DNA of 64,000 nucleotides from Erythrobacter litoralis (GTDB taxonomy: Bacteria > Pseudomonadota > Alphaproteobacteria > Sphingomonadales > Sphingomonadaceae), in assembly GCF_029760855.1 (NCBI RefSeq), contig NZ_SOSI01000005.1, positions 124,001 through 188,000 on the forward strand. The letters run 5' to 3'. The notes beneath the pieces are model-generated. The model was given only the letters and a program-made list of their open reading frames with translations. It made no database searches and was not told the DNA's origin. Positions 13,849 to 24,575 of the stretch are shown in pieces (the first letter of the stretch is position 1; every line of letters starts with the position of its first letter). Made by a program: the position numbers and the translations under genes.

Positions 13849-16800
13849 CTAATGAAAGTCGCGCGACTTGGGAATGATCCTCACGTCGCGCGGATGGCCG
13901 CCATGCCACCCGCATTCCTTGCTGTGCGGCGAAGGCTCCTGCCACGGTTCGACCGGGCGATAGGGATCGTCCGCCCCCTCGCGCAGATCGTCACGCGGAT
14001 TGAACTTGTCGGGCAAGGGCGAAGTGACGTGGTCGGCTCTGGCTACAGGCGCTTTCAGCATCTCGTCCGAAAGCTTGTGCAGTTCCTGCGTCGCATCGGT
14101 CATGTGGTGGGCAATCACATGGATGACCTCGTCGTCGTACTCCACCCGTCCGCGCACTTCCATCAATCGGGCGCCCATCACCACCCGGCGCTGCTTTTCC
14201 TTCAGATCCGGCCAGACGACGAGATTGATGACGCCCGTCTCGTCTTCAAGCGTGATGAAGCACACGCCCTTGGCGCTGCCGGGCCGCTGCCGGATCAACA
14301 CCACGCCTGCAACGTGGACCATGCTGCGAAACTTCTTCGCGCGTAAGTCGCAAGCGCGGACGAAGCCCCGCTCGGCCAGATCGGCGCGCAGGAAGGCCAT
14401 CGGATGCGCCTTCAGGCTTAAGCGCGTTGTCTGGTAATCGGCGACAACCTCCTCGGAAAGCGGCATGTGCGGCAGGGCGGTGCGCGCCTTTTCCGCCCCC
14501 TCGTCCCGCGCGGCGGCATGGGCGAAAAGCGGCAGGTCCGGCCCGCCGACCAAGCTGCGCGCATCCCACAGCGCCTGCCTGCGGGAAAGGCCGATAGAAC
14601 CGAACGCATCCGCGCTGGCGAGCCGCTCGACATGCGCCGGCCCGATCCGCGCCCGGTCACGCAGGGCCCGCACATCACGATAAGGCCCGTTGGCATCGCG
14701 CTCTGCCAGAAGTTGTGCCGCGACCGCTTCGGGCATTCCGTCGATCTGCCGCAGGCCGAGACGCAGGGCGATATGCTTGTCGAGGCGGCCTGTATCTCTC
14801 TCCGGCGATTTGGCTTCGCCAACCTCCTCCAAAGTGCAATCCCATTGCGAGATGTTCACGTCCGGCGGCAGCACGGCGACCCCATGCTCTGCCGCATCAC
14901 GCACGATCTGCGCGGGCGCATAGAACCCCATGGGCTGCGAATTCAGCAGCGAGCAGCCGAACGCCGCCGGGAAATGGCATTTGAGCCAGCTCGAGACATA
15001 CACCAGATGCGCAAAACTGGCCGCATGGCTCTCGGGGAAACCGTATTCGCCGAAGCCGCGGATCTGGTTGAAGCAGCGCTGCGAGAACTCCCGGTCATAG
15101 CCTCGGCCGACCATCCGCTCCACCATCATGTCCTGTAATTCGTCGACCATGCCGCGGCTGCGGAAGGTCGCCATCGCCTTGCGCAACCGGTTCGCTTCCT
15201 TTGAGGAGAACTTCGCCGCATCGAGCGCGACCTTCATCGCCTGCTCCTGGAAGATCGGCACGCCCAGCGTCCGCCCGAGAATATTCGACAGCTCGTCGGG
15301 CGGGCCGTGTTCGGGACTGGGCGCAGGGATCACTACCTGCTCCGCGCCACGCCGGCGCTTGAGATAGGGGTGCACCATGTCGCCTTGGATCGGGCCGGGC
15401 CGCACGATCGCGACCTGGATCACGAGGTCGTAGAACTGGCGAGGGCGCAGGCGCGGCAGCATGTTCATCTGCGCGCGGCTTTCCACCTGGAACACGCCGA
15501 GCGAATCGCCGGTGCGCAGCATGGCGTAAGTTTCGGGATCCTCGCGCGGGACATTGGCGAGGGTCAGCGTGCGGCCATGATGCTCGTCCAGCAGGTCGAG
15601 GCATTTGCGGATGCAGGTGAGCATGCCGAGCGCCAGCACATCGACCTTGAGGATGCCCAGCGCCTCGATATCGTCCTTATCCCATTCGATGAAACTGCGT
15701 TCGGGCATGGCGCCGTTGCCGACCGGCACCGTCTCGGTCAGCGCACCCTCGGTGAGGATGAACCCGCCGACATGCTGGCTGAGGTGGCGCGGCATGCCGA
15801 TCATCTGCTCGGTCAGCTTGAGAACGCGGCGCAAGTGCGGGTCTTCCACATTCATGCCGGTTTCTGCGGCATGGCGCTCGCTGATTTCGCGGCCCCACCC
15901 GCCCCATACGGTTTTCGCGAGCGCGGCGGTGACGTCTTCGGTCAGCCCCATCGCCTTGCCCACTTCGCGGATCGCCATGCGCGGACGGTAATGGATCACC
16001 GTGGCGCACAGCCCGGCGCGGTGCCGGCCGTATTTGCGATAGAGATACTGGATCACCTCCTCGCGCCGCTCGTGCTCGAAGTCGACGTCGATATCGGGCG
16101 GCTCCTTGCGGTCTTCGGATATGAACCGGTCGAACAACAGCTGGTGCTGCGAGGGATCGACATTGGTGATGCCAAGGCAATAGCAGACCGCCGAATTGGC
16201 CGCGCTGCCCCGCCCCTGGCACAGGATCGGCGGTTCGACCTTGTGGCGCGCGAAATCGACGATGTCCTTGATGGTGAGGAAATAGCGCGCAAGGTCCATC
16301 TTGCCGATGAGCGAGAGTTCCTTGTGCAGGGTCTCGGTCACGCTATCGGGAACGCCCGCCGGATACCGCCACTCGGCGCCTTTCCACGTCTCGCTTTCCA
16401 GGAACTCCTGCGGCTCCATCCCGCCGGGGTAAAGCTCTTCGGGGTATTCGTATTTCAGCTCGTCGAGGCTGAAGTCGCAGGCATCGGCCACTTCGCGCGC
16501 GGCGGCGATGGCATGAGGCCAGCGCTCGAATAGCCGAACCATCGTCTCGGGCGGTTTCAGGTAACGCTCGGCATTGCCGTGAAGCAGATGACCGGCATGC
16601 GCGACGGTGGTCTTGTGTCGGATCGCCGTCATAACGTCCTGCAGCGGGCGCTTGTTCGGTGCGGCGTAATGCACGTCGTTGGTGGCGAGGATTGAGAAAC
16701 CGTTTTCGCGCGCGAGAGCGTCGAGCCGGGTGATCCGGGCAACGTCGCTATCGGTGTAGAGATAAGCGGCGGCGATGTGTTTGAGGGTGGGCAGTTGGGC

Positions 16801-17403
16801 GGTAAGTCGGGGGAGGATGGTCGCAACATCGCCAGTCAGTTCCAACTGTTCCTTAGCCGCATTCTCCTGATGCGAACCGTCAATGGCGACGACATTGCTC
16901 GGCACCGTGATGGTGAACTCCGTATCCAGGTCGCGCGGCGGGATCAGGATAAGCTGCACGCCTTTTGCATGACGCGCGAGCATGGCGAGGCTGATGTCAC
17001 ATTCGCCCTTCTCCTGCCACTTGCCGTCGAGATCGCGCATCCGCCCGGCCGAGATAAGCTTGCAGAGCCGGCCATAGGCGGCGCGGCTCTCCGGGTAGGC
17101 GAGGAAAGCCAGCCCCTCGACCGTCTCGATCCGGCAGCCGATGCAGGGTTTGAGCTTGAGCGTTTTCGCCTCGGTATGCACACGCACCACGCCGGCCATC
17201 GTGTTGGCGTCGGCAATACCCAACGCATCGTAGCCGAGCGCGCGCGCGGCCAGCACGAGGTCGACAGCATCGCTCGCCCCGCGCAGGAAACTGAAACAGC
17301 TGACGAGGCCGAGTTCGACGAAGGGCGCGCGGGGCGGCGCGTCGATCAGGTCTGGATCAAGCTCGATCCGCCGCTTGGGTATCTGAAGGTCGTTTTCAGG
17401 CAC
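13849..17403 (-). CDS. dnaE2: Error-prone DNA polymerase DnaE2 (ImuC)
   Basis: A 1184-residue C-family polymerase of the DnaE2 group, the catalytic subunit of the ImuA-ImuB-DnaE2 mutasome responsible for damage-induced mutagenesis in bacteria lacking Pol V. The N-terminal PHP domain starts LVSCFSFLRGASDAVDLVLAARALGYDALGIADANTMAG; the palm carries PDIDVDFEHERREE at about residues 435-448, including the catalytic Asp pair; a C-terminal OB fold (SMVHVAGVVLIRQRPGSAKGVCFITLEDETGVINLVVWP) is clear. The start is a GTG at 17403 without a good Shine-Dalgarno and cannot be extended beyond a TGA 18 bases upstream. A palindromic repeat separates it from the UdgX gene; the three genes otherwise share strand and a LexA box at 20207. 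Confidence 0.96.
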   Translation of the reverse strand: MPENDLQIPKRRIELDPDLIDAPPRAPFVELGLVSCFSFLRGASDAVDLVLAARALGYDALGIADANTMAGVVRVHTEAKTLKLKPCIGCRIETVEGLAFLAYPESRAAYGRLCKLISAGRMRDLDGKWQEKGECDISLAMLARHAKGVQLILIPPRDLDTEFTITVPSNVVAIDGSHQENAAKEQLELTGDVATILPRLTAQLPTLKHIAAAYLYTDSDVARITRLDALARENGFSILATNDVHYAAPNKRPLQDVMTAIRHKTTVAHAGHLLHGNAERYLKPPETMVRLFERWPHAIAAAREVADACDFSLDELKYEYPEELYPGGMEPQEFLESETWKGAEWRYPAGVPDSVTETLHKELSLIGKMDLARYFLTIKDIVDFARHKVEPPILCQGRGSAANSAVCYCLGITNVDPSQHQLLFDRFISEDRKEPPDIDVDFEHERREEVIQYLYRKYGRHRAGLCATVIHYRPRMAIREVGKAMGLTEDVTAALAKTVWGGWGREISERHAAETGMNVEDPHLRRVLKLTEQMIGMPRHLSQHVGGFILTEGALTETVPVGNGAMPERSFIEWDKDDIEALGILKVDVLALGMLTCIRKCLDLLDEHHGRTLTLANVPREDPETYAMLRTGDSLGVFQVESRAQMNMLPRLRPRQFYDLVIQVAIVRPGPIQGDMVHPYLKRRRGAEQVVIPAPSPEHGPPDELSNILGRTLGVPIFQEQAMKVALDAAKFSSKEANRLRKAMATFRSRGMVDELQDMMVERMVGRGYDREFSQRCFNQIRGFGEYGFPESHAASFAHLVYVSSWLKCHFPAAFGCSLLNSQPMGFYAPAQIVRDAAEHGVAVLPPDVNISQWDCTLEEVGEAKSPERDTGRLDKHIALRLGLRQIDGMPEAVAAQLLAERDANGPYRDVRALRDRARIGPAHVERLASADAFGSIGLSRRQALWDARSLVGGPDLPLFAHAAARDEGAEKARTALPHMPLSEEVVADYQTTRLSLKAHPMAFLRADLAERGFVRACDLRAKKFRSMVHVAGVVLIRQRPGSAKGVCFITLEDETGVINLVVWPDLKEKQRRVVMGARLMEVRGRVEYDDEVIHVIAHHMTDATQELHKLSDEMLKAPVARADHVTSPLPDKFNPRDDLREGADDPYRPVEPWQEPSPHSKECGWHGGHPRDVRIIPKSRDFH

Positions 17404-17416
17404 ACACGCACCATTG

Positions 17417-17497
17417 CGTCATTCCGGCGAAAGCTGAGATCTCGTGCAGCAATGTCCGGCATGGACGCACCGGATCCCTGCTTTCGCTGAGATGACG
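17417..17497. repeat. REP-like palindrome between the udgX-type gene and dnaE2
   Basis: CGTCATTCCGGCGAAAGC (from 17417) and the reverse complement of the right end, CGTCATCTCAGCGAAAGC, form an imperfect inverted repeat of about 26 bases per arm closing on GATC, with roughly 30 bases between. The sequence resembles the CGTCATTCCCGCGAAAGCGGG repeats widespread in alphaproteobacterial genomes. It fills almost all of the 98-base gap before dnaE2 and may attenuate or stabilise the operon mRNA. Confidence 0.75.
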
Positions 17498-17501
17498 ATA
17501 T

Positions 17502-18959
17502 TCATTGCGCCAACTCCTCCAACCGCTCCTTCACGGCGGAAAGGTCGGCGTCGAACAGGCGCGACTGTTCCTCGCGCGCGGCCCCGTCGAGGCGCAGGAG
17601 ATACGAGGGGTGCGCCGTCACCCATAGCTCGCTGCCATCCTCCAGCGCGATCGGCTCGCCGCGAACCTTCGAGATGCTCACCGTCTTGCCGAGCATGCCG
17701 CGCGCCGCACTCGCGCCCATGGCGAGGATCAGCTTGGGCTGCACAATTGCTCGCTCGCTTTCGATCCACCAGCGGCAGGTATCGATCTCCTTCGCGCCGG
17801 GCGACTGATGCAGTCGCCGCTTGCCGCGCTGGACATATTTGAAATGCTTGACCGTATTGGTGACGTAGGCGCTGCGCCGGTCGATCCCGACCTTTTCCAG
17901 ATGCGTATCGAGCAATTGCCCAGCCGGCCCCACGAACGGGCGGCCCTGCTGATCCTCCTGATCGCCCGGCTGTTCGCCCACTATCATGAGCGCGGCATCG
18001 CGCGGCCCCTCACCCATCACCGCCTGGTTGTCGAGCTCGCCGATGGGGCATTTGCGGCAGGCGTGGATCGCCTTGTCGATCGCCTCAAGCGTTTCCGGGC
18101 GTTCCTCGAATTCGAGCGTTCCTGCTTCGACCATTGCGCTCTCCCGCTTTTGCGCGCCCGCCACCAGCTCGGGAATGAGCGCGGCTTCGGGCATGTTCTT
18201 CCAGTATTTGCGGGGCATTTCCTTCAGCATCGCCCCGATCTTCAAACGCGCCGGGTTGAAGATGGATGCATAATAGCTGCGCCACAGCTCCTCCATCGGA
18301 TCGCCGCCGGGCGCGTCACTGCGCTGAGCAGGCGGGCCTTCACGCATAGTCTCGGTATCCCAATGTAGAGATCCGCGCGGCGTCAGGATCGACCAGTGCA
18401 TATTGGAAAAGCGCCGCATGAAGAAACCGGCATTGGCGCGCAGAATGTGATGCTCCGGCTCGAACCACGCGACGTACTGCTCCTGCGGCGCCTCATCATC
18501 GCCTTCCTCCGGTTCGACGAGCCGGAAGCGGACGAAGGCGTGCATCTTGTGACTGTCGCGGCGGACGTTCTTGTCCAGTTCCTCGATCCTGCGTACATCG
18601 GGATCGGCCTTGTCCTCCATCATCCGCGGGTTCGACTGGATGCGCCACAGCAGACGATAGAGCAGCGCGAACCGGTCGGGATCGGAATGCAGCGCTGCGT
18701 TCTTGGCCAAGGACATGAAGCGCTTGTTCGCCCGCACCTCGCGCGCGTCGGGCGGCGGCACGGGAGCGCGGCGCTCACCGTGCGCGAACAGGTCGCCATT
18801 ACCGCCGGGTTCGACCCAAGCGACCCGGTCGGGCGGAACCTCGCATTGTACCAGCGCCCGCGCCCGCTCGCGCCAGAAGCCGAAATCGTCCGGCTCGGGC
18901 AGTTGCACGACGTAATAGGTACCGAGCTTCACGTTCTGGAGCGTGCGCGCTTCCCTCAT
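17502..18959 (-). CDS. DUF4130 - UdgX family uracil-DNA-binding/glycosylase fusion
   Basis: A 485-residue two-domain protein. The N-terminal half (about residues 1-240) corresponds to the DUF4130 'probable DNA metabolism' domain (NKRFMSLAKNAALHSDPDRFALLYRLLWRI, HKMHAFVRFR, PRGSLHWD). The C-terminal half (about 270-485) is a UdgX-type uracil-DNA glycosylase with four Cys suited to a 4Fe-4S cluster (CRKCPIGE plus later Cys), motif GEQPGDQEDQQGRPFVGPAGQLLD near residue 330 and HPSYLLRLDG near the end. The UdgX-specific loop reads KRRLHQ near residue 380; in Mycobacterium smegmatis UdgX (KRRIH) that His forms a covalent bond to the abasic sugar after uracil release. Start ATG overlaps the radical SAM stop as ATGA. 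Confidence 0.92.
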   Translation of the reverse strand: MREARTLQNVKLGTYYVVQLPEPDDFGFWRERARALVQCEVPPDRVAWVEPGGNGDLFAHGERRAPVPPPDAREVRANKRFMSLAKNAALHSDPDRFALLYRLLWRIQSNPRMMEDKADPDVRRIEELDKNVRRDSHKMHAFVRFRLVEPEEGDDEAPQEQYVAWFEPEHHILRANAGFFMRRFSNMHWSILTPRGSLHWDTETMREGPPAQRSDAPGGDPMEELWRSYYASIFNPARLKIGAMLKEMPRKYWKNMPEAALIPELVAGAQKRESAMVEAGTLEFEERPETLEAIDKAIHACRKCPIGELDNQAVMGEGPRDAALMIVGEQPGDQEDQQGRPFVGPAGQLLDTHLEKVGIDRRSAYVTNTVKHFKYVQRGKRRLHQSPGAKEIDTCRWWIESERAIVQPKLILAMGASAARGMLGKTVSISKVRGEPIALEDGSELWVTAHPSYLLRLDGAAREEQSRLFDADLSAVKERLEELAQ

Positions 18960-20203
18960 GCCGCGAACAGTTCCAGTTGCTCGGTTTTGGGTGCGAGCAT
19001 GGTGCGCAGATCGGCGCGGTCGGTGAGGAGAACAGGTCGCCAGTCGGTCGTCACGATGAACGGGCGAACCTTGGTAATCGACAGCGTCAGCTTTGCTACA
19101 TCGTCGAGCCGCAAGGTGCGATGCCGCCGGCTCGCGAGGATCTTCTGCACCGCCTTCACCCCAAGCCCCGGAACGCGGAGCAATTGCTCTTTCGTCGCGC
19201 GGTTCACGTCGATCGGAAACTGCTCACGAAACTTCAGCGCCCACGCAAGCTTGGGATCGATGTCGAGCGGCAGATTGCCGTCCGCCTCGGTCGCCTGCAT
19301 CACTTCGCCCGGCTTGTACCCATAGAAGCGCATCAGCCAGTCGGACTGGTAGAGCCGGTGCTCGCGGATGAGCGGCGGGCGTTTGAGGGGCAGCACCGCG
19401 CTTGCATCGGGGATCGGCGAGAAGGCGCTGTAATAAACGCGGCGCAAGCGGAAATTGTCATACAAGCGGCTGGCCTTGCCAACGATGTCCGCATCGGTGG
19501 CGGCATCGGCGCCAACAATCATTTGCGTCGACTGTCCGGCGGGCGCAAACCGCGGCGCATGGCGAAAGCGCTTCTTCGCATCCTTCGCTTCAGAAAGATC
19601 GTCCTTCACCTTGCCCATTGCACCTTCAATCTGGCGCGCATCCTTGTCAGGCGCGAGACGTGTCAGCCCGGCATCGGTCGGCAGTTCAACATTGATCGAA
19701 ACCCGGTCGGCGTAGAGTCCTGCCTGATGCACGATCTCGGCATCGGCTTCTGGAATAGTCTTCAAATGTATGTAGCCACGAAAATCGTGCTCTTCGCGCA
19801 GGATACGCGCGACCTCGACGATCTGCTCCATCGTGTGGTTCGAGCTTTTGACGATGCCCGAAGAGAGAAACAGCCCCTCGATATAATTGCGGCGATAGAA
19901 GGCAAGCGTGAGGTCGACCACCTCCTGCGGCGTGAACCGGGCGCGTTGCACGTTCGAGCTCTTGCGGTTCACGCAGTAGTGGCAATCGAAAATGCAATGA
20001 TTGGTCAGCAAGATTTTTAGAAGCGAGATGCATCGACCATCCGGAGCATAGGCGTGGCAGATGCCCATTCCTTCGGTTGAACCGATGCCCTTTTCCGACC
20101 CCAGCGAACTTTTCTTCGACGTGCCGGACGACGCACAGGATGCATCATATTTCGCCGCGTCCGCGAGAATTTCCAGCTTTTGAAGAACGGTCTGCGAAGC
20201 CAT
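18956..20203 (-). CDS. Putative DNA modification/repair radical SAM protein
   Basis: The 415-residue protein carries the radical SAM cluster motif CIFDCHYC (Cys-x3-Cys-x2-Cys) in LLTNHCIFDCHYCVNRKSSN, near residue 70, preceded by the family start KLEILADAAKYDASCASSG. Near the C-terminus is a helix-hairpin-helix-like DNA-binding motif (DVNRATKEQLLRVPGLGVKAVQKIL). This family is regularly paired with the DUF4130/UdgX family and is assumed to act on DNA; the reaction is unknown. The gene is the first of an operon with the UdgX fusion (4-base overlap) and dnaE2. A LexA box begins three bases upstream of the ATG, so no normal Shine-Dalgarno is present. Confidence 0.92.
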   Translation of the reverse strand: MASQTVLQKLEILADAAKYDASCASSGTSKKSSLGSEKGIGSTEGMGICHAYAPDGRCISLLKILLTNHCIFDCHYCVNRKSSNVQRARFTPQEVVDLTLAFYRRNYIEGLFLSSGIVKSSNHTMEQIVEVARILREEHDFRGYIHLKTIPEADAEIVHQAGLYADRVSINVELPTDAGLTRLAPDKDARQIEGAMGKVKDDLSEAKDAKKRFRHAPRFAPAGQSTQMIVGADAATDADIVGKASRLYDNFRLRRVYYSAFSPIPDASAVLPLKRPPLIREHRLYQSDWLMRFYGYKPGEVMQATEADGNLPLDIDPKLAWALKFREQFPIDVNRATKEQLLRVPGLGVKAVQKILASRRHRTLRLDDVAKLTLSITKVRPFIVTTDWRPVLLTDRADLRTMLAPKTEQLELFAA

Positions 20204-20206
20204 TCG

Positions 20207-20221
20207 TTCGATATATGTTCT
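20207..20221. promoter_or_regulatory. LexA box (GTTC-N7-GTTC) at the start of the radical SAM-udgX-dnaE2 operon
   Basis: GTTC at 20207-20210 and GTTC at 20218-20221 are separated by exactly seven bases (GATATAT), matching the direct-repeat LexA operator of alphaproteobacteria. It ends three bases from the ATG of the radical SAM gene at 20203. The AT-rich centre (CATATA on the coding strand) could also be the -10 element. It places the operon under SOS control and suggests a very short or leaderless transcript. Confidence 0.85.
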
Positions 20222-20361
20222 CTAGTCGGATTTGCCTAGGACTTTCCTCGCGCTGTCGTCTCCGTCCACCTCGTTTAACGAGCAAGATCCTTTGAAAGGG
20301 GAACATAACCGGATGTTTTGCGGTTGGAGAAATGAAACTAAACAATAATTTAGGAGCTTCA

Positions 20362-21189
20362 ATGTCGTATTTCGAAACGCGCGACGGGACCAATATTCGT
20401 TACAAGGAACTCGGCGAAGGCCGCCCGGTCATCCTCATTCATGGCTGGCCGTTGTCGAGCGATAGTTGGGACTCTGTGATGATGGCGCTGGCCGATAAGG
20501 GCATGCGCGCCATTGCCTACGATCGTCGCGGGTTCGGCCGGTCCGACCATGCGAAGACGGGTTACGATTACGATACATTCAGCGATGATCTTGCCGACCT
20601 CATCTCCCATCTCGACTTGGCCGACAATATCGGCCTCGCCGGCTTTTCGATGGGCGGCGGTGAAATCGCGCGCTACCTCAATCGGCATGGCGGCAAAGGC
20701 GTGAATGCAGTCGCATTGGTAAGCTCGGTCGTGCCCTATATGCTCAAGACCGACGATAATCCCGATGGCGTGCCGCAATCGACTTTCGACGAAATGACCG
20801 AAGGCATGAAGCACGATTACCGCCACTTCTTCACCGGCTTCTTCCAGGATTTCTACGGCGACGGCTGGATCAAGGACAAGGTCACCGACGAGGAAAAGGA
20901 TTGGGCATGGATGACCACGATGATGAGTGCGAAATGGGCGACGATGAAATCCGCCCAAGCGTTCGCGACTACCGATTTCCGCCCAGACTTGCCCAGCTTC
21001 ACGGTACCCACGCTGGTCATCCACGGTACGCAGGACAAGACGGTCCCGATCGACGCGACCGGTAGAGCCGTGGCGAAAGCCGTCCCGGCGGCGAAACTGA
21101 TCGAATATGACGGCGAGCCCCACGCGGTCTTTGCCACGCAAACCGAGCGGTTGGCTGACGACTTGGTAAAGTTCTTCTCGGCGAACTGA
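20362..21189 (+). CDS. Alpha/beta hydrolase, non-haem chloroperoxidase/perhydrolase type
   Basis: A 275-residue cytoplasmic hydrolase. It shows the oxyanion segment HGWPLSSDSWD, the sequence YDRRGFGRSD, the nucleophile elbow GFSMGGGE (catalytic Ser), the Asp in VIHGTQDKTVPID and the His in YDGEPHAVF. This fits the cofactor-free bromo/chloroperoxidase-esterase group. The ATG at 20362 is preferred because TTAGGAG lies eight bases before it; an ATG at 20332 would add ten residues. It is divergent from the radical SAM operon, with no LexA box of its own other than the one near that operon. Natural substrate is unknown. Confidence 0.88.
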   Translation: MSYFETRDGTNIRYKELGEGRPVILIHGWPLSSDSWDSVMMALADKGMRAIAYDRRGFGRSDHAKTGYDYDTFSDDLADLISHLDLADNIGLAGFSMGGGEIARYLNRHGGKGVNAVALVSSVVPYMLKTDDNPDGVPQSTFDEMTEGMKHDYRHFFTGFFQDFYGDGWIKDKVTDEEKDWAWMTTMMSAKWATMKSAQAFATTDFRPDLPSFTVPTLVIHGTQDKTVPIDATGRAVAKAVPAAKLIEYDGEPHAVFATQTERLADDLVKFFSAN

Positions 21190-22110: not shown

Positions 22111-23697
22111 TTATGCGCACAGGCCCTGCAGATACCAGTCGGGCATGCCGCCGCGCCCGTCGCCCACGATGCCGAGGCGGTAGATCCAGTAGCGGCGACC
22201 GGTATCGTCCTCGATCCGGTAATAGTCGCGCAGGCGGGCACTGCCGCGCTCACGCCACCATTCGGGCGCGATCCGCTCCGGCCCCTCGACCCGCGCGACT
22301 TCGTGTACCTGCCCGCGCCAACGGAAGCGCTTGGGATAGCCGTCGGGCGTGGCATAGAGCACTGCGATCTTCTCGGCCGTATCCAGCAGTTTGAGCGGGC
22401 GCTTATGAAAGGGGAGGTCGCCCTGGCTCGCCGGTTCGGGATCGAGCGGGCGCTGCCATCGTTGCGCGCGCTCGGGAATGTGGCTGGCGAAGGGGACCGG
22501 GCGGCTCACCGCCTTTTCGCCGAGGCGCACCGTCAGCCGGTCGATACAGGCGGCAAGGCTGGTACCGTGCGCTTCCGCCGCAGCTTCGATATCGCCCTGC
22601 TCCAGCGCGAGCGGTTCGGCCCAGCTGGCGCGCAGGCGCACCATTTCTATCCCGAAGCCCGCGTCGACATCGTCGAGCTTGGCGGCGAACAACCGGCAGA
22701 TATGCGCCGCCTCGCGCGTGGCGGCGGCGAGTTCCAAGCGGCGGACGATGACCTCGCCATCGACGCGCCACAGGCCGATCTCGAGCCGCCGCGCGCCCTC
22801 GCCCCGCCCTTCGAGCTCGCGCGCCATATCGGCGGCGAGATCGCCCAGCACCTGATCGAGCAGTGGGCGGTGGCGGATCGGCTCCATCAGCCGGCGCTGG
22901 ACCAGCGGCATGTCCTGCTGCACCACCGGGAGCAGCGGTTCGGGCACCCGGCCGAGCAATTGGTCCATCCGGATGAGTGGATTGGCGGCGGGCGATTTCC
23001 TGTTGCGGAACCGCCGCTGGATCGCGTCACGCCCGATCGTGCCAAGTTCGCCCAGACGTTTGAGGCCGAGGCGGCGCAGTACGGTCAACACGTCCTGGTC
23101 GAGGCGCAAGGCGGCGACCGGCAGGTCGGACAAGGCGCGGGCGATGTCGTCCTCGGCACTCGATCCTGTCCCACCGACAATAGCGTCCGGCGGGCCGTAA
23201 TGCGAAAGCGCCCAGGCTGCCCCCGCCGTAGGCGCGATGGCGGCACGTACTGCGAGTTTACGCCGGGCGAAAGCGCGTGCGACATCGGCGAGCAGGGACT
23301 GCTCCCCGCCATAAAGATGCGGTACCGCCGTAACGTCGATCAGCAGGCCGTCGGGCGCATCCATCGCCGACCACGGACCCCAGCGCCGCCCCCACAGCGC
23401 CAGCTTTTCGAGGAAGGCGAGGTCCGCCGCAGGGTCTGCCGGGGCGGTGGCGATGGCGGGACAAAGCGTGCGTGCATCGGCAAGCATCGTGCCGCGCCGC
23501 GCACCCGCCTCCAGCGCGATGCGGTTGAGCGCCTCGATTCGGGGGCCGTGCGCGGTATCGGCGATCAGCACCAGCGGGCCGGCATCGAGCGCCGAGCCCG
23601 CCTCGCCCATGGCAAGCCGCCAGCGATCCATCGCCAGCGCGGGCAGCCAGAGGGAGAGGATGCGGCGGCCCGAGACCGATGGAGCCGGGGAAGACAA
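22111..23697 (-). CDS. imuB: ImuB, inactive Y-family DNA polymerase-like mutasome hub
   Basis: A 528-residue Y-family-like protein. The N-terminal region aligns to the palm (RILSLWLPALAMDRW) but has LWLPALAMD where active polymerases have the metal-binding D-x-D pattern, and the later acidic motif is replaced (GLLIDVTAVPHLYGG), consistent with ImuB being a non-catalytic adaptor. A helix-hairpin region (LRRLGLKRLGELGTI) and little-finger region follow. QGDLPF near residue 430 fits a beta-clamp-binding motif. ImuB bridges the clamp, ImuA and DnaE2. The start is a TTG at 23697, seven bases after the imuA stop, with GGGGA as ribosome-binding site at the edge of a palindromic repeat. Confidence 0.94.
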   Translation of the reverse strand: MSSPAPSVSGRRILSLWLPALAMDRWRLAMGEAGSALDAGPLVLIADTAHGPRIEALNRIALEAGARRGTMLADARTLCPAIATAPADPAADLAFLEKLALWGRRWGPWSAMDAPDGLLIDVTAVPHLYGGEQSLLADVARAFARRKLAVRAAIAPTAGAAWALSHYGPPDAIVGGTGSSAEDDIARALSDLPVAALRLDQDVLTVLRRLGLKRLGELGTIGRDAIQRRFRNRKSPAANPLIRMDQLLGRVPEPLLPVVQQDMPLVQRRLMEPIRHRPLLDQVLGDLAADMARELEGRGEGARRLEIGLWRVDGEVIVRRLELAAATREAAHICRLFAAKLDDVDAGFGIEMVRLRASWAEPLALEQGDIEAAAEAHGTSLAACIDRLTVRLGEKAVSRPVPFASHIPERAQRWQRPLDPEPASQGDLPFHKRPLKLLDTAEKIAVLYATPDGYPKRFRWRGQVHEVARVEGPERIAPEWWRERGSARLRDYYRIEDDTGRRYWIYRLGIVGDGRGGMPDWYLQGLCA

Positions 23698-23703
23698 CGC
23701 AAT

Positions 23704-24543
23704 TCATCCCCGTTCGCCCTGAGCCTGTCGAAGGGTTGGTCTTCTTTCCATCCTTGAAACGGAGGAAAAAAGCAGTCCTTCGACAGGCTCAGGACGAACG
23801 GAATTGGAAGCGTCTTGCCGGGTCGATGAATGAGCCACCAGCATCCCGCCCCCATCGCCCAGCACCCATGTACCCGGCCGGTGCCCGCGTGCGCGGAACA
23901 GCTCCGCATGCCATGCCGGATCGCCGGGCGCCTGCGTATTCCAGCGGGGTGCGGGCGACGGCGCGCTTGCTACTTCCCACCGCATCCGGGCCGAAGACAG
24001 ATCGCGCCCCGCATCGAGCCGTACGAGAAACAGGGGCACGCCATGCTTTTGAGATACCAACGTCAATCGCCGCGAAGCGGTGAAATCGAGCGCCTTGGGA
24101 TTGCCCGACATCTCGCCGATAACGAACGCCAGATCGCGGCAGCGCAGCCCTTCTTCCAGCGCGAACAAGGCATCTTCCGGCTTGTCAGCCAGCACATGGA
24201 TCACCCGGTGACGCACATCTTCGGGCAGTCCTGCGCGGTAGGGCCGCCCCGACAGGCGGGCCGCCTCGCGCGTCTGCACCCACAGGATGCCGCGCCGGTC
24301 CTCCGCCTCATCGGTTTCGCCTCGCGGTGTGGTGCGCCAATCGTCGAGCGCCAGGGCCAGCGCCGCGCCCGCCCCCGCCCCCTCGCGTGAAGAGGCAAAC
24401 ACTTCGTTGTGGAACGCCTTGCCTTCTTCCGCCGCCAATCCCGGGCGCCACCGCGCGCTACGCCGGACACACAGCGCCGCGACGTCTTCGCCGATCGCGT
24501 GCAGAGCCTCTTCGGGCAGGGAGGAAAGGTCGGGTTGGGTCAT
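23704..24543 (-). CDS. imuA: ImuA, RecA-like mutasome accessory protein, with repeat-encoded C-terminus
   Basis: The 279-residue protein is the alphaproteobacterial ImuA type, a RecA-fold relative needed with ImuB and DnaE2 for damage-induced mutagenesis. Visible segments include AFHNEVFASSREGAGAGAALALALDDW, GILWVQTREAARLSGRPY and RRLTLVSQKHGVPLFLVRL. No intact Walker A is seen. The last 33 residues or so (from NSVRPEPVEG to LRQAQGERG) are translated from a palindromic repeat at 23710-23801, so the native C-terminus has been replaced or extended. A LexA box lies 18 bases upstream of the ATG at 24543. It is the first gene of an imuA-imuB operon; dnaE2 is in a separate operon 5 kb downstream. 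Confidence 0.9.
   Translation of the reverse strand: MTQPDLSSLPEEALHAIGEDVAALCVRRSARWRPGLAAEEGKAFHNEVFASSREGAGAGAALALALDDWRTTPRGETDEAEDRRGILWVQTREAARLSGRPYRAGLPEDVRHRVIHVLADKPEDALFALEEGLRCRDLAFVIGEMSGNPKALDFTASRRLTLVSQKHGVPLFLVRLDAGRDLSSARMRWEVASAPSPAPRWNTQAPGDPAWHAELFRARGHRPGTWVLGDGGGMLVAHSSTRQDASNSVRPEPVEGLLFSSVSRMERRPTLRQAQGERG
23710..23801. repeat. Palindromic repeat at the imuA-imuB junction
   Basis: Two 25-base arms (ending CTGTCGAAGG on the left, beginning CCTTCGACAG on the right) are inverted copies with a single mismatch, separated by 42 bases. On the minus strand it is translated as the C-terminus of ImuA, and its edge abuts the ribosome-binding site of imuB. Other members lie at 51276 and 58287. 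Confidence 0.9.
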
Positions 24544-24560: not shown

Positions 24561-24575
24561 GTTCCTCTTATGTTC
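24561..24575. promoter_or_regulatory. LexA box (GTTC-N7-GTTC) upstream of imuA
   Basis: GTTC at 24561-24564 and GTTC at 24572-24575 flank seven bases (CTCTTAT). On the minus strand a promoter-like TTGCGA, 17 bases, CATAAG can be drawn in which the -10 hexamer lies inside the box, so bound LexA would block RNA polymerase. This supports SOS control of imuA-imuB. Confidence 0.88.

Follow-up and report, generated by a model that had tools for sequence, protein, structure and literature searches.

The usual arrangement of mutasome genes under LexA is the imuA-imuB-dnaE2 (imuC) cassette. The LexA box itself differs between lineages, taking the form GTTC-N7-GTTC in alphaproteobacteria and the E. coli-type form CTGT-N8-ACAG in gamma- and betaproteobacteria. 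A second described system is the gene pair covered by the NCBIfam entries TIGR03916, TIGR03915 and TIGR03914, which name neither a regulator nor a polymerase partner, and a third is the UdgX protein of Mycobacterium smegmatis. These systems come together in a 64,000-nucleotide (nt) stretch of the Erythrobacter litoralis genome (positions 124,001 to 188,000 of contig NZ_SOSI01000005.1, from GCF_029760855.1, an assembly of 2.97 Mb in 10 contigs), referred to here as the window. Genes for a radical SAM protein (rSAM), a DUF4130-UdgX fusion and the error-prone DNA polymerase DnaE2 follow one another on its minus strand behind a LexA-type box, with imuA and imuB close by. We argue that the three genes probably constitute a LexA-repressed operon beside imuA-imuB, and that their products would serve a common damage response to some extent in parallel and with no obligatory order of action.

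In order of transcription, the operon encodes rSAM (18956-20203; 415 residues), the fusion protein (17502-18959; 485 residues; TIGR03915 and TIGR03914, PF13566 and PF03167) and DnaE2 (13849-17403; 1184 residues, GTG start; NF004225). All three proteins score above their NCBIfam cut-offs, in agreement with a first-pass annotation that had named the same three same-strand genes. The perfect GTTC-N7-GTTC box that it had placed against the first ATG is likewise there: GTTCGATATATGTTC at 20206-20220, which reads GAACATATATCGAAC on the coding (minus) strand, with 2 nt separating it from the rSAM ATG. The pair resembles the NCBIfam pair in that both proteins exceed the cut-offs and are encoded by adjacent genes, the rSAM stop and udgX start overlapping as ATGA. 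The window pair differs from those entries in carrying a LexA-type box ahead of it and dnaE2 behind it.

The comparison with the mutasome cassette is similarly mixed. Two kb upstream of rSAM, on the same strand, lie imuA (23704-24543) and imuB (22111-23697), preceded by a second LexA-type box (GAACATAAGAGGAAC on the minus strand, 24561-24575), so the window holds a whole split mutasome cassette and not dnaE2 alone. The imuB product is Y-family-like with an IMS domain, while imuA was named by position (its NF033429 score of 23.3 bits is below the cut-off of 150); both genes are syntenic in relatives. As in the cassette, the three genes fall within 11 kb, a LexA-type box precedes imuA, and DnaE2 passes the NF004225 cut-off. 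Unlike the classical cassette, which is contiguous and has one LexA box, the window locus has two boxes, and dnaE2 is detached, standing third after rSAM and udgX with these genes and a hydrolase gene intervening. The latter, an alpha/beta hydrolase gene identified by gene call and family match (20332-21189, plus strand), diverges from rSAM and shares its intergenic region; it is probably not part of the module.

The individual proteins are well placed within their families. The rSAM match to TIGR03916 reaches 578.3 bits over residues 7-406 (cut-off 343.5), and the CxxxCxxC motif (C70, C74 and C77) is invariant in 44 aligned rows, as are three additional cysteines, C23, C49 and C58. Its C terminus matches a helix-hairpin-helix domain (HHH_3) at 24.6 bits, below the Pfam cut-off of 27. 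No sequence-level relative was found in the PDB at E 0.01. Structures of the lipoyl synthase LipA, HydE and biotin synthase share 11-18% identity with rSAM, which differs from them in the C-terminal helix-hairpin-helix, and the common fold shows no function. Spore photoproduct lyase is a known radical SAM DNA repair enzyme; it is not among the matches listed for rSAM in the structure searches, which excludes nothing.

The fusion protein has a DUF4130 domain at about residues 94-258, where the predicted model is confident over most of its length, and a UDG domain at about 316-466. Its features mark it as a predicted UdgX: the TIGR03914 score is 323.7 bits against a cut-off of 189.95, and it carries both the GEQPG motif and the KRRxH loop. 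Among 147 aligned rows of at least 400 residues, 145 have the motif and 144 the loop histidine. The loop, read as KRRLH in the first-pass annotation, occupies residues 380-384 (17808-17822, minus strand), and its final residue, H384, aligns with H109 of M. smegmatis UdgX, which we take to be the covalent histidine of that protein. The solved M. smegmatis chains (6ail, 6ajo, 6l6s; 206-229 residues) align to the UDG part only; the window UdgX differs in being the C-terminal part of a fusion with DUF4130, encoded beside a radical SAM protein. DnaE2 scores 1369 bits with NF004225 (cut-off 939) and branches with the DnaE2 proteins of imuAB-dnaE2 cassettes in a 70-row tree.

The case for LexA control comes from comparison among genomes. 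Within the window, the pattern itself says little: GTTC-N7-GTTC occurs four times where 1.96 occurrences would be expected, a count reached in 15 of 100 shuffles. A search of the 2.97-Mb genome for the tighter motif GAACNTANNNNGAAC gave 12 sites, and the reversed control gave one. The rSAM and imuA boxes are two of the 12, and some of the others precede frames recognised by eye as RNR-like, RmuC-like, LexA/S24-like and SplB-like radical SAM; the GTTC-N7-GTTC pattern also stands upstream of lexA and recA. When the region from -150 to +30 around each gene start was scored in 159 alphaproteobacterial rSAM loci, the box was present at the rSAM start in 154 (149 of 153 with duplicate genomes counted once) and at the imuA start in 52 of 52. 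It was found at none of the starts of udgX (0/154), dnaE2 (0/57), imuB (0/54) or a downstream extensin-like gene (0/57). Its presence at the divergent hydrolase in all 11 loci where that gene was detected follows from the shared rSAM upstream region.

Each part of the sample shows this conservation. Of the 80 named loci, which are the best of 588 confirmed stretches, lean to close relatives and overlap the genus-level set, 78 have the box; it is also present in 59 of 61 loci taken one per genus from the family, in 13 of the 14 that represent other alphaproteobacterial families and in all four from the own genus. Two partial loci (L018, L019) were left out of a box count, L186 and L229 were not counted, and the genus-level set is without G313 and G325. 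A further 31 of 31 alphaproteobacterial loci from a phylum-wide draw have the box within 250 nt upstream of rSAM. Because it is conserved at the rSAM start, we regard the box at 20206-20220 as real and reject a chance origin, even though the count within the window would allow one. In promoter position and cross-species conservation it matches the pattern of the alphaproteobacterial LexA regulon, as seen at lexA and recA, and the conserved operator predicted in the first-pass annotation is borne out to that extent. Alphaproteobacterial SOS regulon lists (Caulobacter, RegPrecise) may already include members of the pair.

Two other box-bearing sites in the genome deserve mention. One (C3:171647-171661) lies at the start of an SplB-related, PA0069-type radical SAM frame, recognised by eye, which may be another radical SAM gene of this genome with a link to SOS. 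At the other (C7:101632-101887), a pair of LexA-type boxes separated by 241 bases precedes small frames that, by eye, resemble the start of a conjugation pilin operon.

Outside the alphaproteobacteria, the operator changes with the lineage. The phylum-wide draw found rSAM in 84 of 398 genomes, among them 29 from other classes of the phylum, taken by inference to be beta- and gammaproteobacteria. The alphaproteobacterial box was not found in the 250 nt upstream of rSAM in any of these 29 loci. A strict CTGT-N8-ACAG lies within that distance in 19, mostly between -35 and 0 of the rSAM start, and five more have the motif with one mismatch at -22 or -24; the background is six strict sites elsewhere across 352 kb of these loci. 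Such a swap, one lineage's LexA box for another's at the same gene, points to LexA control and is hard to explain otherwise. In 17 of the 29, judged by frame length and match extent, the DUF4130 gene is without a UdgX domain, L264 having only a weak partial match (the open reading frame lengths at L172 and L270 are frame artefacts and were not used, and L290, at 374 residues, was left unclassified). Eleven of the 17 carry the strict box. Since the loci without UdgX keep an SOS-type box, the SOS-type pair appears to be rSAM plus DUF4130, with UdgX an addition, and the core job of the pair is probably something other than uracil binding. On these grounds rSAM-DUF4130(-UdgX) appears to be an SOS operon of phylum-wide occurrence. 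In three of the non-alphaproteobacterial loci (L266-L268), a common palindrome, GGTCTCATCCAATGAGACC or near forms of it, stands about 12-31 nt before the aligned rSAM start, and these loci may use a different operator.

The association with dnaE2 is far more restricted. A quick tree of 70 DnaE2 rows, from which linked rows shorter than 1100 residues or duplicated were left out, places the 51 linked rows on one side of a branch with a Shimodaira-Hasegawa-like approximate likelihood ratio (SH-aLRT) support of 100 and the 19 unlinked rows, several on long branches, on the other. This fits a single origin of the linkage. Eighteen of the 19 unlinked loci are imuA-imuB-dnaE2 (L226 showed imuB and dnaE2 only), and a box precedes the unlinked cassette in 18 of 19, L212 being the exception. 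The conservation of the triple that the first-pass annotation had anticipated stands within this one clade and is not general: dnaE2 adjoins the pair in 16 of the 61 family loci sampled by genus, in none of the 14 from other alphaproteobacterial families and in none of the 29 non-alphaproteobacterial loci, counts that are lower bounds because some loci end at contig edges. Within the clade, 47 of 56 linked loci have a udgX-dnaE2 gap of at most 30 nt, and the median gap is 1 nt; among 53 distinct linked loci, the gap is at most 30 nt in 45 and at most 1 nt in 30.

A second link to the same cassette was found in another alphaproteobacterial family (f161). In seven of its eight rSAM-positive genomes, imuA-imuB is divergent from rSAM-UdgX. 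The region separating the two has a single GTTCATGATATGTTC, which lies about 90 nt from the start of rSAM; where the flanks are long enough to show it (four loci, L293 and L318-L320), dnaE2 comes after imuB. In the eighth genome, neither imuA nor imuB was seen next to the pair. That the same pair and cassette were brought together on two separate occasions favours a functional connection, an argument made on a modest number of lineages and without a formal test.

Several observations weigh against a common operon and response of this kind. The state in which dnaE2 adjoins the pair is, as the counts above indicate, a minority one. On the rSAM tree (a quick tree whose 149 inner branches include 50 open forks), rSAM-UdgX-extensin loci without dnaE2 are nested among the linked ones; this scatter points to repeated loss of dnaE2 with rSAM-UdgX and the box kept, and to a link that is easily lost. 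In a family sample of 249 genomes, rSAM passes its cut-off in 153 and DnaE2 is matched at E 1e-200 in 220, and 75 of those 220 are without rSAM over the cut-off. Conversely, eight have rSAM with no DnaE2 match at E 1e-200; read by eye, four of the eight (G319, G393, G454, G487) are 99-100% complete and four (G409, G461, G475, G516) are drafts of 70-95% completeness in at least 180 contigs. Five of six named genomes with unlinked loci (L031, L038, L041, L042, L067, L082) have DnaE2 elsewhere, and that of L082 has no match at E 1e-200. The box is lacking in 5 of the 159 alphaproteobacterial loci, and neither box type was found in five non-alphaproteobacterial loci (L264-L268). Finally, in both structure searches with the fusion protein the matches listed are to the UDG domain, which swamped the DUF4130 comparison.

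Some of these observations also favour the most serious alternative, to which we give somewhat less than an even chance: that rSAM-UdgX and dnaE2 are neighbours only through their common LexA switch, dealing with different lesions and having no functional link. Repeated loss of dnaE2 from clusters that retain rSAM-UdgX, the occurrence of rSAM and DnaE2 each without the other, and the failure to find dnaE2 beside the pair in other alphaproteobacterial families or other classes are all what it would predict. It accounts less readily for the short spacing kept in most linked species, for the independent second link in f161, or for the correlated presence of the two proteins: rSAM is found in 145 of 220 DnaE2-positive family genomes as against 8 of 29 DnaE2-negative ones (Fisher p = 1.5e-4, uncorrected for kinship).

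The reading we prefer, a LexA-repressed operon whose products share one damage response, can be put as the following history and mechanism. The old core would be the rSAM and DUF4130 pair behind a LexA-type box across Pseudomonadota, with the alphaproteobacterial DUF4130 protein mostly carrying a UdgX domain. The Erythrobacteraceae and some Novosphingobium would descend from an ancestor in which dnaE2, in a single event, left imuA-imuB-dnaE2 and became the third gene of the rSAM-UdgX operon. Since imuA-imuB stayed adjacent to the new operon, both parts could still be switched together. RecA would trigger LexA self-cleavage and turn the operon on; rSAM and DUF4130 may then act on a damaged DNA base by 5'-deoxyadenosyl-radical chemistry, the helix-hairpin-helix part of rSAM gripping the DNA, while the histidine of the UdgX domain would trap uracil, or the abasic site so produced, in a covalent link and ImuB-DnaE2 would copy past the remainder.

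A stricter version, suggested in the first-pass annotation, had UdgX or the rSAM product marking uracil or another modified base and DnaE2 being needed to pass that adduct. The intact catalytic loop of UdgX and the common operon arrangement agree with it. As stated, however, it appears improbable, given the 17 of 29 non-alphaproteobacterial pairs without a UdgX domain, 11 of which have the strict SOS-type box, and the retention of the pair in some genomes without detected DnaE2.

Just as improbable, in our judgment, is that dnaE2 is not co-transcribed with the pair in the window, being isolated by an insert with a strong hairpin and driven by a promoter of its own. In the window, the 98 nt that separate udgX from dnaE2 contain an inserted palindromic repeat (17417-17497), recognised by repeat and folding analysis; the 100-nt junction stretch folds at -41.6 kcal/mol, and 9 of 56 linked relatives likewise have gaps above 100 nt, several with palindromes. 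Against this, the gap has no T run, and a scan of it found no terminator-like site and no sigma-70-like promoter, the scan covering alphaproteobacterial promoters only partly. With no LexA-type box before dnaE2 in 57 loci and short gaps in most linked relatives, the operon arrangement proposed in the first-pass annotation is upheld, and we infer from sequence that rSAM, UdgX and dnaE2 are co-transcribed, bound by LexA at their operator and induced in the SOS response.

The junction appears as if it had taken insertions repeatedly. Different-looking palindromic repeats, similar to repetitive extragenic palindromes (REP-like), were seen by eye at the same junction in six other loci (L039, L048, L056, L083, L118, L144). 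The window repeat was considered as a multicopy element and rejected as one: its sole genome match at E 0.001 is itself, and its arms are single-site in the window. At the other junction of the operon, between rSAM and udgX, a gene of about 160 codons that appears by eye to be hemerythrin-like was noted in five sphingomonad loci (L093, L130, L135, L139, L157).

An anti-phage role was rejected, the three proteins matching no PADLOC family at E 0.001. Ten phage-labelled records contain rSAM, and a virus origin was rejected after one was opened: the 'Acinetobacter phage' record CAKLQH020000003.1 (85422-100567) looks chromosomal, with glyS/glyQ nearby. It holds rSAM and a stand-alone 'probable DNA metabolism protein' among ordinary chromosomal genes, which makes the phage label doubtful. 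A Phaeobacter inhibens plasmid (NZ_CP081222.1) carries rSAM-UdgX and, at a distance of 4-5 kb, an ATP-dependent DNA ligase/exonuclease pair with a (cisplatin) damage response annotation.

The NCBIfam names assign the common rSAM/DUF4130 pair only a putative role in DNA modification or repair. Its position behind each lineage's own LexA-type box, together with two joinings to a polymerase cassette, places it in the DNA-damage response, and the comparative evidence suggests that the first two genes are general damage-response genes that were joined to mutagenic polymerase machinery more than once. More tentatively, and as a possibility we consider doubtful, rSAM and DUF4130 might form an SOS-induced lesion-processing enzyme across Pseudomonadota, adding a second type of radical SAM DNA repair to that of spore photoproduct lyase, with UdgX an alphaproteobacterial site-trapping add-on and DnaE2-ImuAB the downstream partners; 'repair or trap, then mutagenic bypass' would then be one pathway, wired together at least twice. 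A phenotype of the pair should be sought under SOS induction, with its partner DnaE2-ImuAB. In the Erythrobacteraceae, deletion of a single promoter should abolish all three proteins, and the natural losses of dnaE2 offer ready comparisons.

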